7,918 nucleotides of DNA from assembly GCA_025774615.1 (NCBI GenBank), contig JALGVQ010000205.1:1-7918 (forward strand), given 5' to 3'. Below the pieces are notes generated by a model that was given only the letters and a program-made list of their open reading frames with translations, was not told where the DNA came from and searched no databases. Position 1 is the stretch's first letter. Every line of letters begins with the position of its first letter. The stretch is from a bacterium (GTDB taxonomy: Bacteria > Blakebacterota > Blakebacteria > Blakebacterales > Blakebacteraceae). Of the stretch, positions 1 through 5,825 are shown piece by piece. A program made the position numbers and the translations under genes.

Positions 1-1
1 G

Positions 2-661
2 GAGCTCGACGGTATCGAGCGGCGCGGCGTGGTCCTGGCCTTCTTGATGCGCTTCAAGCAGATCTGCAACCACCCGTCTCAGTGGCTAGGTGATGGCGTC
101 TACGAGCCGGCGGATAGCGGCAAGTTCTCCAGGCTGCGTGAGCTTTGTGAATCTATCGCCGCCCGCCAGCACAAGGTGCTGGTCTTCACCCAGTTCCGCG
201 AGATGACCGGGCCGCTGTCCGGTTTTCTCGCCGAGGTCTTCGGCAACACTGGGCTCGTGCTGCACGGCGGAACACCGGTCAAGAACCGCCAGGGATTGGT
301 CAAGAGCTTCCAGGAGGACGACCGCGTGCCCTTCATGGTGCTCTCGCTCAAGGCCGGCGGCACCGGACTCAATCTGACGGCCGCCTCCCACGTGATCCAC
401 TTCGACCGGTGGTGGAATCCCGCGGTGGAGAACCAGGCCACCGACCGCGCCTTTCGCATCGGGCAGAAGAAGAACGTGCTGGTTCACAAGTTCATCTGCC
501 GGGGTACCGTGGAGGAGCGCATCGACGAACTCATCGCGGACAAGCAGAAGCTCTCTGATGAGGTGCTGTCCGGAGGCGCCGAGTCCTCCTTGACGGAGAT
601 GAGCAACGAGGAGTTGATATCGATGGTGTCGCTCGATCTGAGCAGCGCCGTGGAGGGATAA
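2..661 (+). CDS. SNF2/SWI2-family DNA-dependent ATPase, C-terminal part (5' end outside the window)
   Basis: This is the C-terminal RecA-like helicase lobe of a SNF2-type ATPase, a motor that translocates on double-stranded DNA and remodels protein-DNA complexes. The frame is open from base 2, so the N-terminal lobe (Walker A, DEAH) lies upstream of the window; 219 residues remain. Visible landmarks, in order, are FKQICNHP (the SNF2 signature before lobe 2), KVLVFTQF (motif IV region), LHGGTP, SLKAGGTGLNLTAA (motif V), HFDRWWNPAVENQATDR and AFRIGQ (motif VI with the arginine finger), then VHKFICRGTVEERI, the usual closing segment. The end is the family's normal C-terminus, so only the left side is cut. 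The DinD-like gene starts 16 bases after the stop on the same strand, implying one transcript. The SWIM protein two genes on is a typical partner of prokaryotic SNF2 proteins. The family call is very secure; the cellular role is not known. Confidence 0.96.
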   Translation, partial: ELDGIERRGVVLAFLMRFKQICNHPSQWLGDGVYEPADSGKFSRLRELCESIAARQHKVLVFTQFREMTGPLSGFLAEVFGNTGLVLHGGTPVKNRQGLVKSFQEDDRVPFMVLSLKAGGTGLNLTAASHVIHFDRWWNPAVENQATDRAFRIGQKKNVLVHKFICRGTVEERIDELIADKQKLSDEVLSGGAESSLTEMSNEELISMVSLDLSSAVEG

Positions 662-677
662 CAGGGAGAGACCGGAT

Positions 678-1559
678 ATGGACAAAAAGGACATCGTCAA
701 GCTGCATGCCGAGTTCGATTCTATTGTGCAAATTTGGCCCGACTCGAATGTTGAGTTTTGGTTTGCACGGGATCTGCAGAGGGTCTTGGGTTACGCCCAG
801 TGGCGAAACTTCCAGGAGGTGATCGCCAGGGCCAAAGACTCCTGTAAAAATGCTGGCATAGCCATCGAAGACCATTTTGCCGACGTCAGCAAAAAGGTCG
901 AGATCGGCTCTGGCGCAGAGCGCTCCATCGAAGACGTGATGCTCACCCGCTATGCCTGTTACCTCATCGCGCAAAACGGCGATCCGCGCAAGGAACCCAT
1001 CGCTTTTGCCCAGAGCTACTTCGCTATCCAGACCCGGAAGCAAGAGATCATCGAAGAACGGATCCAACTCCAGGAACGGCTTCAGGCTCGCCAGAAGCTC
1101 AGGGAGTCCGAAACAGAGCTTTCAAAGAACATCTACGAGCGTGGCGTTGATGATCGGGGTTTTGGTCGCATTCGCTCCAAGGGCGACGCGGCGCTTTTCG
1201 GCGGCAAGACTACCGGACATATGAAGAAACACCTGGGTGTGCCCAAGAACCGACCTTTGGCCGACTTCCTCCCCACGGTCACCATCACCGCGAAGAGCCT
1301 CGCCACCGAGATCACCAATTACAATGTCCGAAGAGACGATCTTCAGGGTGAGTTTTTCATTACAGCGGAGCACATCCAGAACAACAAGAGCATCCGTTCG
1401 GTACTGCTCGAGCGGGGAATTCGACCAGAGGCGCTGCCTCCCGAAAAGGACCTGAAGAAGCTCGAGCGGCGGGTCAGGGCCGGGGAGAAGGCGCTGGTCA
1501 AGGTTTCGGCGTTGTCACCGGATGCGACTGACGAACCCTCGGCCGGAGAAGAAATGTGA
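678..1559 (+). CDS. dinD: DinD-like (DNA-damage-inducible protein D) BRO-N domain protein
   Basis: The protein has 293 residues, close to the 274 of E. coli DinD, and is recognisable over its full length. Residues about 8-120 form a BRO-N-type domain (VEFWFARDLQRVLGYAQW, then MLTRYACYLIAQNGDPRK and FAQSYFAIQTRK). A charged helical stretch follows (about 121-150), then the DinD-specific region with GGKTTGHMKKHLGVPKNRPLADFLP at about 175-199 and TAEHIQNNKSIRSVLLERGI near 230-250. E. coli DinD is SOS-induced and inhibits RecA-mediated strand exchange; whether this relative does so is unknown. ATG 678 follows GGGAGA with 8 bases between. I see no obvious SOS box before it, and the short gap after the SNF2 gene suggests it is expressed from the operon rather than as a separate SOS gene. 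Its place between the SNF2 and SWIM genes is the unusual point. The family call is strong; the symbol is by similarity only. Confidence 0.92.
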   Translation: MDKKDIVKLHAEFDSIVQIWPDSNVEFWFARDLQRVLGYAQWRNFQEVIARAKDSCKNAGIAIEDHFADVSKKVEIGSGAERSIEDVMLTRYACYLIAQNGDPRKEPIAFAQSYFAIQTRKQEIIEERIQLQERLQARQKLRESETELSKNIYERGVDDRGFGRIRSKGDAALFGGKTTGHMKKHLGVPKNRPLADFLPTVTITAKSLATEITNYNVRRDDLQGEFFITAEHIQNNKSIRSVLLERGIRPEALPPEKDLKKLERRVRAGEKALVKVSALSPDATDEPSAGEEM

Positions 1560-1568
1560 GGTGAGCCC

Positions 1569-2723
1569 ATGGGCAGATACTATGACAGCTACTGGCCCCC
1601 ATATGTGCCGGTAGCTGAACGTCGCCGCCGCGCGGCGCAGAAGGTCGCCAAGATGAAAAAGGCCGGCCATAATATCTCGCCGGTCGAGATCAACGGTCGT
1701 AAGATCGCCACAACCTTCTGGGGCAACGCCTGGTGCAAGAACCTCGAAGCGTACAGCGACTACTCGAATCGTCTGCCTCGTGGGCGAACCTACGTGCGCA
1801 ATGGCTCGGTGATCGACCTTCAGATCGATGCCGGCCGCGTTCACGCGCTGGTCAGCGGCACGGACCTATACACCGTGAACATCAAGATCAAGCCACTGCC
1901 CAAAAAGAAGTGGACGGAGATCAAGGGGCAGTGCGCGGGCCAGATCGATTCGCTGGTGGAGCTGCTCCAGGGATCCATCTCCAAGAGCGTGATGGAGATC
2001 GTCACCCGCAAGGGCGAGGGGCTGTTTCCATCGCCTCGCGAGATCACGCTTAACTGCTCGTGCCCGGACTGGGCCACCATGTGCAAGCACGTGGCCGCGA
2101 CGCTGTACGGAGTTGGCGCGCGTCTCGACCACGAGCCCGAGCTGCTGTTCACCCTGCGCGGGGTCGACCCGACCGAGATGGTCGAGGCCGCCATCGATCA
2201 GCCGACAGGAGCCAGCAAGGCACGCAAGGGCCGGGTGCTCGAATCCAACGAGCTGTCATCGGTCTTCGGTGTCGACATCGACATGGATGGAGTGTCATCG
2301 GACGTATCTTCAACGTCGACCAAGCCCGCCAAGAGAACGCGGCGCGCGGCGAAGACCAGGAAATCGGCAGCGTCCAAGGCGACCAAGAAGAAGAGCGCAG
2401 CCAAGCTGGCGACCAAGAAAACAGCGCCAGTCAAGAAGACGAGCACCGCCAAGAAGGCCACACCGAAGAAGACCAGCACGAAAAAAGCGGCTACCAGGAA
2501 GAGCACGGGGATGAAGACGCCGAAGAAGCCGGCTCGCAAGAAGGGCGCGGCAAGCACCACCACCGGCAAGAAATCGACCACGAAGAAGCCCGCACCCAAG
2601 AAGTCGACGGCCAAGAAGGAGCCCGCGAAGAAGGCGGCCACCGAAAAGAAAGCTGCTCCCAAGAAGAAAACAACCAAGAGGAAGCCGTCAGCGAAGAAAG
2701 CGACCAAGAAGGTCAAGGGGTAA
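1569..2723 (+). CDS. SWIM zinc-finger protein with histone-H1-like lysine-rich tail
   Basis: The protein has 384 residues in two parts. Residues 1-210 are the conserved core: an N-terminal block (YYDSYWPPYVPVAERRRRAA, then GRKIATTFWGNAWCKNLE and YSDYSNRLPRGRTYVRNG) and a SWIM finger C163-x-C165-x6-C172-x-H174, which should bind zinc. This is the SNF2-associated type of SWIM protein, thought to bind DNA or proteins. Residues about 253-384 are a low-complexity Lys/Ala/Thr/Ser tail with repeated KK, AKK and PKK units, like eukaryotic H1 and bacterial H1-like proteins, expected to be disordered and to coat DNA non-specifically. The start ATG lies 9 bases after the dinD-like stop, with GAGGTGAG just upstream, so translation is probably coupled. 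The cytoplasmic protein may recruit or hold the SNF2 motor on DNA; that is inference. The finger is intact and all four ligands are present. Confidence 0.93.
   Translation: MGRYYDSYWPPYVPVAERRRRAAQKVAKMKKAGHNISPVEINGRKIATTFWGNAWCKNLEAYSDYSNRLPRGRTYVRNGSVIDLQIDAGRVHALVSGTDLYTVNIKIKPLPKKKWTEIKGQCAGQIDSLVELLQGSISKSVMEIVTRKGEGLFPSPREITLNCSCPDWATMCKHVAATLYGVGARLDHEPELLFTLRGVDPTEMVEAAIDQPTGASKARKGRVLESNELSSVFGVDIDMDGVSSDVSSTSTKPAKRTRRAAKTRKSAASKATKKKSAAKLATKKTAPVKKTSTAKKATPKKTSTKKAATRKSTGMKTPKKPARKKGAASTTTGKKSTTKKPAPKKSTAKKEPAKKAATEKKAAPKKKTTKRKPSAKKATKKVKG
2325..2720 (+). repeat. Low-complexity AAG-rich repeat encoding the lysine/alanine tail
   Basis: This stretch of the SWIM gene is dominated by imperfect AAG, GCC and ACC codon repeats that encode KK, AKK and PKK units. 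Units are irregular in length and spacing, so it is degenerate rather than a tandem array. It also produces long spurious open frames on both strands: an acidic Glu/Gln-rich frame on + and a hydrophobic Phe/Val/Leu-rich frame on -. Length variation by slippage between strains is expected. Confidence 0.75.
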
Positions 2724-3532: not shown

Positions 3533-4189
3533 ATGGTCGATAACGGGCCAAGTGACCACGCGACTGCTGATGCCGTGGACATGATCCTGGAGTCAAGCAT
3601 GCTGTGGCAGCTTGGCGAGGAAGGGTTGCTCGTTTTCTGGCGCGATCCAGACTCCGACAAGACGAGAGCCTATCCCGACATGCCGGACGTAACCGACCCG
3701 GTGCTGCTCCAGTGGCTCGCCTCCGAGATGAATTCAAACGCGTTACCAGCGACGCCACTTGTCCCGGTAGGAAGGCGGGTCTGGAATCGGCTCATCCGGA
3801 GGGTCGGTCCTCTCCGCAATGAACGTGCTGTCGTCCCCGTTCTTGATTCTGATCTTGCCCTTCAGTCGGCCGTCTTTGCCCAGCTTGACGCTGCCTGTCC
3901 CCGACATCTGGTCGTACTCCCACGCGCCCATCCACATGAAGGAGACGCCCGTCTTGGTCGCCTGCGCGTTCACATGCGCGAGGAGGCAGTGCATCCGAAG
4001 CCGATCATCGTCGCCGGTGAGGGAAAGCAGTGCAGGCCCGAGATAATCGAGACCGTCGTCGATCCAGGTGCCAGTCTCGGTGATGCGCCACCAACCGTAG
4101 TACTCGTCAGGGATATCGGTCATCGCTCTCGCTCCATGGCTCGCGGCTTGGCTTCGTCTTCGTTCCCAGCCTCACCGGCAAGCGCCTGA
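3533..4189 (+). CDS. Acidic hypothetical protein; 5' part plausible, 3' part probably antisense read-through
   Basis: ATG 3533 has AGAGG 8 bases upstream and lies 13 bases after the coiled-coil gene, fitting the operon. The first about 70 residues look like real protein: acidic, balanced in composition, with EEGLLVFWRDPDSD, YPDMPDVTDPVLLQWLASEM. From about 3745 on, the frame lies directly opposite a convincing - strand gene (3743-4123), and its composition becomes that of a shadow frame (runs rich in Arg, Pro, Val and Ala). The next in-frame stop is only at 4187-4189. I therefore suspect the true 3' end was lost or frameshifted near 3730-3770, where another frame stops at TAG about 3767. An upstream TTG at 3503 would overlap the previous gene and is less likely. 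Function unknown. Confidence 0.45.
   Translation: MVDNGPSDHATADAVDMILESSMLWQLGEEGLLVFWRDPDSDKTRAYPDMPDVTDPVLLQWLASEMNSNALPATPLVPVGRRVWNRLIRRVGPLRNERAVVPVLDSDLALQSAVFAQLDAACPRHLVVLPRAHPHEGDARLGRLRVHMREEAVHPKPIIVAGEGKQCRPEIIETVVDPGASLGDAPPTVVLVRDIGHRSRSMARGLASSSFPASPASA
3743..4123 (-). CDS. Conserved hypothetical protein (WWRI-type, beta-rich)
   Basis: The protein has 126 residues and is encoded opposite the preceding operon. It begins with a Trp-rich segment (DEYYGWWRITETGTW), continues with LDYLGPALLSLTGDDDRLRM and a central aromatic stretch (VSFMWMGAWEYDQMSGTG), then alternating Gly/Lys strands (SVKLGKDGRLKGKIRIKNGD, STFIAERT). It ends in a Pro-rich, positively charged tail (PIPDPPSYRDKWRRW). 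The pattern suggests a small beta-barrel or beta-sandwich of soluble type, with no signal peptide or membrane segment. I recognise it as a widely distributed protein of unknown function. GGAG stands 8 bases before ATG 4123, and that ATG overlaps the stop of the upstream chimeric ORF in ATGA, so translation may be coupled to it. Confidence 0.8.
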   Translation of the reverse strand: MTDIPDEYYGWWRITETGTWIDDGLDYLGPALLSLTGDDDRLRMHCLLAHVNAQATKTGVSFMWMGAWEYDQMSGTGSVKLGKDGRLKGKIRIKNGDDSTFIAERTDPPDEPIPDPPSYRDKWRRW

Positions 4190-4365
4190 CGGAGCATGCG
4201 TTCCCTCTGCCCCCGGCGGAACACATCGTGTGAGTTGCAGACTGCACAGCGTAGCTTGTGGGAACGGTGCCGAATGGTGAACCTGATCTTGCCGCCGCCA
4301 TATTGTGTGCGAACGTAGTCGCATCCCTGGATCCCGTAAGCATGGTCAAGTAGAGAGGTGGACAT
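4120..4365 (-). pseudogene. ISL3-family transposase, N-terminal remnant (chimeric ORF)
   Basis: Residues 1 to about 57 match the N-terminus of ISL3-family transposases: MSTSLLDHAYGIQGCDYVRT, then a strand with FTIRHRS, the zinc-binding pair C40-x2-C43 (LRCAVCNSHDVFRRG), and RER before the point where the family continues with an R-x-LPIG motif. Here that continuation is missing. Residues about 58-81 are unrelated, charged and probably disordered (RQALAGEAGNEDEAKPRAME). The DDE catalytic domain is wholly absent; a full transposase has about 400 residues. The 81-residue ORF is thus an inactive remnant fused to foreign sequence, ending in an ATGA overlap with the next gene. ATG 4365 was chosen from family similarity; a GTG at 4413 is in frame but has no support. 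The deletion could have happened when the element and its flank were rearranged. Confidence 0.75.
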
Positions 4366-4435
4366 CGGCGGGATTTCCTTCCGTGCGTCGTAGTTTGCTG
4401 ACTGCTGACACACGGGAGCATCCTACGATGTCCAC
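4358..4435 (-). promoter_or_regulatory. 10-bp inverted repeat around the transposase start codon, with T6 beyond
   Basis: GTGGACATCG at 4358-4367 is perfectly inverted as CGATGTCCAC at 4426-4435, with 58 bases between. An inner pair CCGTG (4381-4385) and CACGG (4411-4415) nests inside. In a - strand transcript that begins outside, the arm from 4435-4426 would pair with the bases holding the ATG (4365-4363), hiding the start codon. Several insertion sequences, such as IS10, use this kind of hairpin to block translation from outside promoters. On the + strand the repeat is followed by six T (4437-4442), so it could alternatively act as a terminator. Function is inferred. Confidence 0.45.
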
Positions 4436-4616
4436 GTTTTTTCTACCTAATTCTCAACTCCTTACGTTAATACGGGGGATCCCAGAAGTACGCAAAAACC
4501 GGATGAACCATAATTACTCCCATTAGCCAGAGTGTTTCGCCGGATTAGGCCGCATGATTCCCTTGTGAAACAGATTGAATACGATCACAGTAGAGGACTG
4601 AAAGCGATGTTATTGA
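4366..4616. other. Gene-free, AT-richer junction between accessory cluster and thiI
   Basis: I see no convincing gene here. Both strands have stops in all frames or only short unlikely frames. The segment from about 4437 to 4530 is visibly richer in A and T than both sides, with a T6 run at 4437-4442. A TGA at 4614-4616 closes the thiI frame upstream. The thiI promoter should lie here, but no TATA-like or -10/-35 element is clear enough to mark. No tRNA and no direct repeats resembling attachment sites were found. It probably marks where the accessory DNA meets the core chromosome. Confidence 0.5.
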
Positions 4617-4628
4617 TCGGATGGATTT

Positions 4629-5825
4629 ATTCGGGGGGACCTCATACGGTACGCCGAAATCGCCCTGAAGGGGAAGAACCAGCCTCAATTTATAAACCGA
4701 CTGATCCGGAATATCAGGGAAGCGCTCGGTCTGCGGGATGATCAGATCATCCGGCAGTCGGGCCAGCTTCTGATACATGTCGAGCGGGAACACCTGCAGA
4801 CGTGTCTGGACGCACTGGCGGGTGTGATGGGTATCGCCTGGTTCACCGAGGTCCATCGTTGTGAGAGTACGGTCGAGGTCATGGGAGAAACAGCCCTCGC
4901 CCTTGTGAATGGGTTGAGGGATGGCAGGGCATCTTTTGCGGTCAATGCCCGACGGGCAGAGAAATCACTCCCCTTCACCAGCGCTGATATCAACAACCGG
5001 ATCGGAGCGCTTCTGCAGGAACAGACCGGCGCTCGGGTCGATCTCGGCAACCCGGAGGTGACGGTACATGTCTCTGTGCGCAAGAATGAGAGTCTCATCT
5101 TCCTCAACAGACTTGATGGCCCGGGCGGATTACCGGTCGGCACGAACGGCAGGGTCCTCTCTCTCCTTTCAGGGGGATTCGATTCAATAGCATCCTCCTG
5201 GTACCTCGCCCGCCGCGGCGCTGAGGTCGACTTCCTCCATTTCCACGCGCTCTCCCGGATCGAGGCGGTCATGGCCTCCAAGATGCCCGCTCTCTGGACG
5301 CAGTTGAGCGGATTCACCAGGTCGGGAAGGACATACCTGGCCGACTACGCGCCGTTCGAAGTGGCACTGCTCGGTTCGTCACCGGGGCTGCAGCGCTATG
5401 AACTCGTGGCTTTTCGCCGACTGATGGTGAGAGTGGGGGAGCGGCTGGCCGAGCAGTATGGGTATGACGGTCTGGTTCTTGGAGACAGTCTCGGTCAGGT
5501 CGCCTCACAGACCATGCAGAACATCGTTGTGGTGGATCGGGCCGTGAACATTCCGATCTTCCGACCACTGATAGGATTGGATAAGACCGAACTGATCGAC
5601 CTGGTTCGACGTATCGGTATGTGGGACGCGGCCACGACCGCGTACAAAGATTGCTGTTCACTCATCGCACGCAATCCCAGCACCCAGGCCGCGCTCGAAA
5701 AGGTCGAGGCACTGGAAGAGGGTCTGGCAATCGGCACCCTGGTCGAGAGGATCGCGGATGAGACCGCGATCGTCCGGATCGATATCAGAGGAGATGCAAA
5801 CGGGGTTGAGAAAGGGGAGGACTGA
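4629..5825 (+). CDS. thiI: tRNA 4-thiouridine synthase ThiI (no rhodanese domain), start codon uncertain
   Basis: ThiI uses ATP to adenylate uridine 8 of tRNA and inserts sulfur to make 4-thiouridine; relatives also serve thiamine thiazole synthesis. Numbering is from an assumed ATT start at 4629, giving 398 residues, the usual length of rhodanese-less ThiI. Residues about 5-40 form the N-terminal ferredoxin-like region (LIRYAEIALKGKNQPQFINR), about 60-165 the THUMP domain, and residues from about 175 the PP-loop ATPase. SGGFDS at 181-186 is the ATP-binding loop, GDSLGQVASQT (about 285-295) is the second signature, and Cys342/343 in KDCCSLIARNP align with the essential Cys344 of E. coli ThiI. 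No ATG, GTG or TTG is in frame between the TGA at 4614 and GTG 4824, and starting at 4824 would delete the first about 65 conserved residues. The gene therefore starts at a rare codon (ATT 4629 or ATA 4644), or carries an indel. TerB follows 4 bases later. Confidence 0.9.
   Translation: MRGDLIRYAEIALKGKNQPQFINRLIRNIREALGLRDDQIIRQSGQLLIHVEREHLQTCLDALAGVMGIAWFTEVHRCESTVEVMGETALALVNGLRDGRASFAVNARRAEKSLPFTSADINNRIGALLQEQTGARVDLGNPEVTVHVSVRKNESLIFLNRLDGPGGLPVGTNGRVLSLLSGGFDSIASSWYLARRGAEVDFLHFHALSRIEAVMASKMPALWTQLSGFTRSGRTYLADYAPFEVALLGSSPGLQRYELVAFRRLMVRVGERLAEQYGYDGLVLGDSLGQVASQTMQNIVVVDRAVNIPIFRPLIGLDKTELIDLVRRIGMWDAATTAYKDCCSLIARNPSTQAALEKVEALEEGLAIGTLVERIADETAIVRIDIRGDANGVEKGED

Follow-up and report, generated by a model that had tools for sequence, protein, structure and literature searches.

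A dinD gene inserted between the genes of a SNF2-SWIM pair in a metagenome-derived bacterial genome

Three closely packed forward-strand genes, for the C-terminal lobe of a SNF2-family ATPase, a DinD protein and a SWIM-domain protein, open the contig described here, and they raise the question of whether their products form one system or whether one of the genes is a newcomer. The window analyzed, 7,918 nucleotides in length, is one entire contig (C295); the genome to which it belongs was derived from a metagenome and is incomplete (3.3 Mb in 324 contigs, 82% complete). The SNF2 gene (2–661) retains only the C-terminal RecA-like lobe (219 residues), its 5' part lying past the contig end; it is followed after 16 bases by a full-length dinD gene (678–1559, 293 residues) and, after a further 9 bases, by the SWIM gene (1569–2723, 384 residues). 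Positions and gaps are exactly those given in the original prediction, and this spacing suggests that the three genes are co-expressed as an operon in the window.

The SNF2-SWIM pair

The SNF2 fragment is recognized by the Pfam Helicase_C model (76 bits), its best NCBIfam model is the SCO1167/SCO6262 helicase C terminus (264 bits to SCO1167), and its best solved relative is SsoRad54 (1z5z/1z63, E 3e-53). SNF2 ATPases translocate along double-stranded DNA. The lobe also resembles ZorD, DpdE and DrmD, a likeness that concerns the C-lobe only, and no Zorya, Dpd or DISARM partner is encoded within the window, which starts at the contig end.

The product of 1569–2723 scores slightly under the cut-off of the Pfam SWIM model (17.9 versus 19.6). 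Its zinc ligands, Cys-163-x-Cys-165 and Cys-172-x-His-174 (encoded at 2055–2090), do not vary among 41 relatives or among 10 more distant proteins, and the relatives carry the annotation "SWIM zinc finger family protein," so that its identification as a SWIM finger protein holds. Fingers of this family bind DNA or proteins. The core gives a good predicted model (pLDDT 89.6) without a PDB match, ZSWIM8 appearing only at a probability of 0.38. The protein ends in a basic tail of 130 residues (255–384, window 2331–2720) that contains 46 Lys, 25 Ala, 23 Thr and 7 Arg. The original prediction had described this tail as H1-like; the tail is indeed present, but the histone label reflects composition only, as the NCBIfam histone-H1-like model (NF038053) reaches 20.8 bits, on the tail only, against a cut-off of 80, and the tails vary between relatives. 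Homology to histone H1 was rejected on these grounds. Some of the tails in relatives resemble HTH domains by eye. After the SWIM core, a (D/E)LSxxFG(L/I/V)D motif (window 2250–2282 and many other loci) is found family-wide though the tails vary, and this motif could serve to bind a partner.

When GTDB species genomes were scanned with a SWIM alignment, 559 loci were confirmed, and the best 80 of these, together with six loci from viral contigs and the plasmid and whole-genome loci, make up the 95 SWIM loci compared here. SNF2 lies directly 5' of SWIM in the 83 loci in which both genes could be measured, with a median spacing of 4 nt and a spacing above 100 nt in only 4; the corresponding distance in the window is 907 nt owing to dinD. 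SWIM::SNF2 fusion proteins of ~1170–1230 residues were also found. Tight spacing and fusions together argue that the two proteins form a functional unit, and the partnership on which the original prediction had relied is thus confirmed: SNF2-SWIM is a widespread pair and is the conserved unit at this locus. The pair was absent from the three members of the host's family that were searched. SWIM-associated SNF2 ATPases have been named as such (PMC5512222). The window protein is like these SsoRad54-type (SCO1167/SCO6262) enzymes in the sequence of its C-lobe, the N-lobe with its Walker A/B motifs lying beyond the contig end, and in having a SWIM partner encoded adjacently, whereas it is unlike them in the dinD gene between the two and in the long lysine-rich tail of the partner.

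The enrichment of such pairs near defense genes that the original prediction had envisaged was not borne out, as the genes immediately beside SNF2-SWIM included no recurrent defense family. Seventy PADLOC models were matched in genes near the pair versus 31 in far genes, similar in kind and with each model confined to one or two genes. We also considered SNF2-SWIM as the core of a restriction-modification (R-M) or defense island and rejected this, because the neighbors are scattered, none recurs, and R-M parts occur near only 3 of the 95 loci. A match to RhuM adjoins one SNF2-SWIM pair in the pooled neighbor scan.

dinD as an addition to the pair

The product of 678–1559 matches the NCBIfam DinD model NF008573 with 364 bits (cut-off 242) over residues 2–275, as well as Pfam Bro-N and, with 385 bits, the PADLOC candidate PDC-S13. 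It is therefore, like DinD of Escherichia coli, a full-length member of the family, and it is unlike that protein in being encoded within a SNF2-SWIM operon. A recurrent position of dinD between SNF2 and SWIM, a point on which the original prediction depended, was not observed, since neither tblastn nor the DinD HMM at E ≤ 1 detected DinD at any of the 95 SWIM loci (which include the best 80 of 559).

The closest relative among the SWIM loci examined is that of a deltaproteobacterial MAG (L020), the SNF2 and SWIM proteins of which are 95 and 93% identical to those of the window. Here the site is empty: homology covers window positions 1–660 and 1558–2471, and a 42-nt spacer replaces dinD, which places the insertion at 661–1557. 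The SWIM leader GAGGTGAG is retained in L020, and in the window the TGA stop of dinD falls within this same leader, while the ribosome-binding-like GGGAGA upstream of dinD is dinD's own. These data identify dinD as a secondary addition, the corresponding site in the closest relative being empty. A second relative, from Nitrococcus (L021, 88 and 83% identity), has 807 nt of extra sequence in the same SNF2/SWIM spacer (L021 9194–10000), coding for a reverse-strand antitoxin plus a PIN-like toxin, a pair that by eye looks like VapBC; the spacer thus accepts cargo.

With DinD at none of the 95 SWIM loci, an empty site in L020 and a basic tail that varies, the single three-part system of the original prediction is not supported, and a conserved three-gene system was rejected as the main reading of the locus. 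In the flanks of the L020 pair, a transposase DDE fragment (L020 11323–11793) lies 17 nt 3' of the SWIM gene, and a gene for a 457-residue protein of no known family (L020 5843–7213) lies 2 nt 5' of the SNF2 gene.

The usual setting of DinD and its likeness to DdrC

For a comparison of gene neighborhoods, 47 genome loci with DinD were retrieved. The order HsdM-DinD-HsdS was seen four times, with overlaps of 4–8 nt, and other orders include Mod-DinD-Res and PLD-helicase-DinD-methylase. Pfam searches of the 51 immediate same-strand neighbors of DinD returned ResIII (8), N6_Mtase (7), Methylase_S (7), HsdM_N (6) and Eco57I (4), whereas 61 control genes at distances above 6 kb gave only about 3 R-M matches; provided that ResIII, N6_Mtase and Methylase_S each mark separate proteins, the counts are 22 of 51 versus 3 of 61 (Fisher P 1.5e-6). 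By BLAST, R-M parts lie near 16 of the 47 DinD loci compared with 3 of the 95 SWIM loci, although some of the references came from DinD loci, which favors the DinD side. DinD is also frequent in phages and plasmids; a scan of viral sequences gave 80 loci with an alignment as query and one with a single sequence. Its presence in R-M operons, plasmid par operons and phages marks DinD as a guest, typically inside R-M and other DNA-handling operons. RhuM and Fic/Doc are likewise guests of R-M operons (PMC3710099), and DinD is like them a small accessory gene there but belongs to a different protein family. No R-M match was obtained among the window proteins; the contig ends at base 1, and dinD has no methylase, specificity or restriction gene adjacent to it there. 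We know of no toxicity of DinD. Individual loci with DinD inside type I and III R-M operons, often with overlaps of 4–8 nt, are L214, L262, L263, L264, L138, L267, L218 and L225, and dinD directly 3' of the partition genes parA/parB is seen in L174, L177 and L180, which come from Flammeovirgaceae and Thiothrix plasmids.

In E. coli, dinD belongs to the SOS genes, and its product is known to affect RecA in a manner that is still poorly explained; DdrC, like DinD, is induced by DNA damage and has, to our knowledge, so far been treated as specific to Deinococcus. The AlphaFold model of the window DinD (pLDDT 88) has DdrC (PDB 7udi, 8u0g, 7qvb) as its sole significant match in the PDB (E 1.7e-6 and a probability of 1.00 by Foldseek), the next unrelated match being at E 0.095. 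Re-alignment of the 1000 best chains from Foldseek gave a Z of 15.3 over 203 residues for DdrC and 7.9 for the next chain. The identity is 16% and the rmsd is large (9–10 Å), the latter being what a different placement of the two domains would produce. Profile searches match DdrC weakly and in its C-terminal half only (E 0.0047 with a profile of the window and viral DinDs, and 0.045). DinD thus resembles DdrC of Deinococcus radiodurans in its predicted fold, with two domains over ~200 residues, while differing from it in sequence and in the placement of the domains. The homology is probably unreported, as we found no open-access paper that draws this link; only one, a review on solar radiation, contains the names of both proteins. 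DdrC is reported to bind and bridge DNA and to join up the ends of linear molecules (PMC5436757), and an action of E. coli DinD on RecA filaments, in line with the original prediction, has been reported (Uranga 2011, as cited in PMC4457935). If true, a shared fold would let each protein explain the other, and this link and the seat of DinD in R-M operons matter more than the trio itself, a locally altered form of the known SNF2-SWIM gene pair.

DinD and SNF2-SWIM do meet elsewhere. A Thiothrix subterranea plasmid carries parA-parB-dinD-SNF2-SWIM, whereas T. fructosivorans has par-dinD without SNF2-SWIM, and an IMG/VR contig (L366, G663) encodes, all on one strand, DinD-HsdR-YgjP peptidase-SWIM::SNF2-ATPase-SWIM::SNF2-ATPase; this contig is filed as viral but looks like a defense island. 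In a DinD tree the window protein clusters with phage DinDs and one DinD from a Mod-DinD-Res operon, and the Thiothrix protein falls in a distant clade, which indicates independent events. Among 137 DinD loci, chance alone would give about 0.03 such meetings, versus the two seen (P ~4e-4, a rough and post hoc value, with small replicons raising the chance rate), so that the association appears to exceed chance. It likely reflects a weak shared preference of DinD and SNF2-SWIM for the same, defense-type loci. Co-occurrence at the level of genomes is raised (Fisher P 0.03 and 0.002, kinship ignored), and no contig carried matches to both in the 480 genomes searched for DinD and SWIM. The order SNF2-DinD-SWIM was seen only in the window, and gene order differs among all three cases. 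The insertion is therefore largely unique and the pair elsewhere has no consistent link to DinD, an outcome that goes against the original prediction, but not wholly so in view of these two loci and of the strong tie between DinD and R-M operons.

Competing readings and the contig boundary

We regard as probable that the locus is a widespread SNF2-SWIM module, an SsoRad54-type motor with a zinc-finger partner, and that a promiscuous dinD was inserted in its intergenic spacer. The SNF2 protein would act as a translocase on double-stranded DNA, with the SWIM protein as its guide or anchor, and the basic tail of the SWIM protein would add non-specific DNA binding. By analogy with DdrC, DinD may bind and bridge DNA at breaks and restrain RecA there, and in a cutting or translocating operon it would protect or manage broken DNA. 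A SWIM gene of Deinococcus deserti is strongly radiation-induced under the IrrE/DdrO motif (PMC5552922), which fits a role in DNA repair. As a tentative extension, DinD could be a widespread relative of DdrC, a break-binding, DNA-bridging and RecA-restraining guard of the DNA ends made or met by restriction, SNF2-SWIM and partition operons, with SNF2-SWIM as another defense-type host. A dedicated repair or anti-mobile-element machine, in which a SNF2 motor, a DNA-coating SWIM tail and a DinD recombination brake work together, would account for the tight co-directional spacing of the trio, for the independent combinations in Thiothrix and on the contig with the R-M island, and for the raised co-occurrence in genomes, but we consider it very improbable given that DinD is missing from every SWIM locus compared, never shares a contig with SWIM in the 480 genomes, changes its place in the gene order from case to case and is paired here with a tail that is not conserved. 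Somewhat less remote, though still unlikely in our judgment, is neutral or selfish hitch-hiking, by which a phage- or plasmid-borne dinD settles in permissive spacers and its placement carries no functional meaning. The abundance of DinD in phages and plasmids, the unrelated VapBC-like cassette at the same spacer in L021 and the failure to find the window's gene order elsewhere are all consistent with it; the neighbors of DinD are, however, far from random, with R-M components dominating, and the overlaps of 4–8 nt with hsdM are kept, which suggests maintained co-expression.

A further doubt concerns the contig rather than the trio and would not conflict with the insertion of dinD into a SNF2-SWIM module. 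The left 4.5 kb of the window has a tetranucleotide correlation with the host of 0.765, lower than that of any of 21 equally long host chunks (the lowest has 0.818), in contrast to 0.934 for the right part, and it is absent from genomes G001–G003. The sister genome is homologous from exactly 4640 onward, a point within thiI, which lacks its start codon at this boundary; a multi-copy host repeat (4510–4640) abuts here. All of this would be expected of an assembly or binning artifact in which sequence of another organism was joined at the repeat, and yet a real genomic island explains the same facts, a remnant of the N terminus of a transposase lying close to the border of the foreign block (4120–4413, reverse strand). 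This remnant is 47% identical (E 8e-10) to a Pseudodesulfovibrio profundus protein annotated "transposase family protein." Two sharp joins within the trio that leave reading frames and leaders intact are also improbable products of misassembly, and we hold an artifact to be doubtful; the left block is a mobile island unless it was joined to the host at the repeat during assembly.

Searches for tRNAs and Rfam RNAs gave no match in the window, the repeat at the boundary between the foreign left block and the host-like right block included. The thiI gene, which extends to 5825, has no usual start codon, and the repeat abuts it at about codon 5 (window 4617–4660). The repeat itself, ~130 bp in length, is dispersed, with copies in G000, G002 and G003, most of which end in ...ATGTTATTGATCGGATGGATTTATTCGGGGGGACA.
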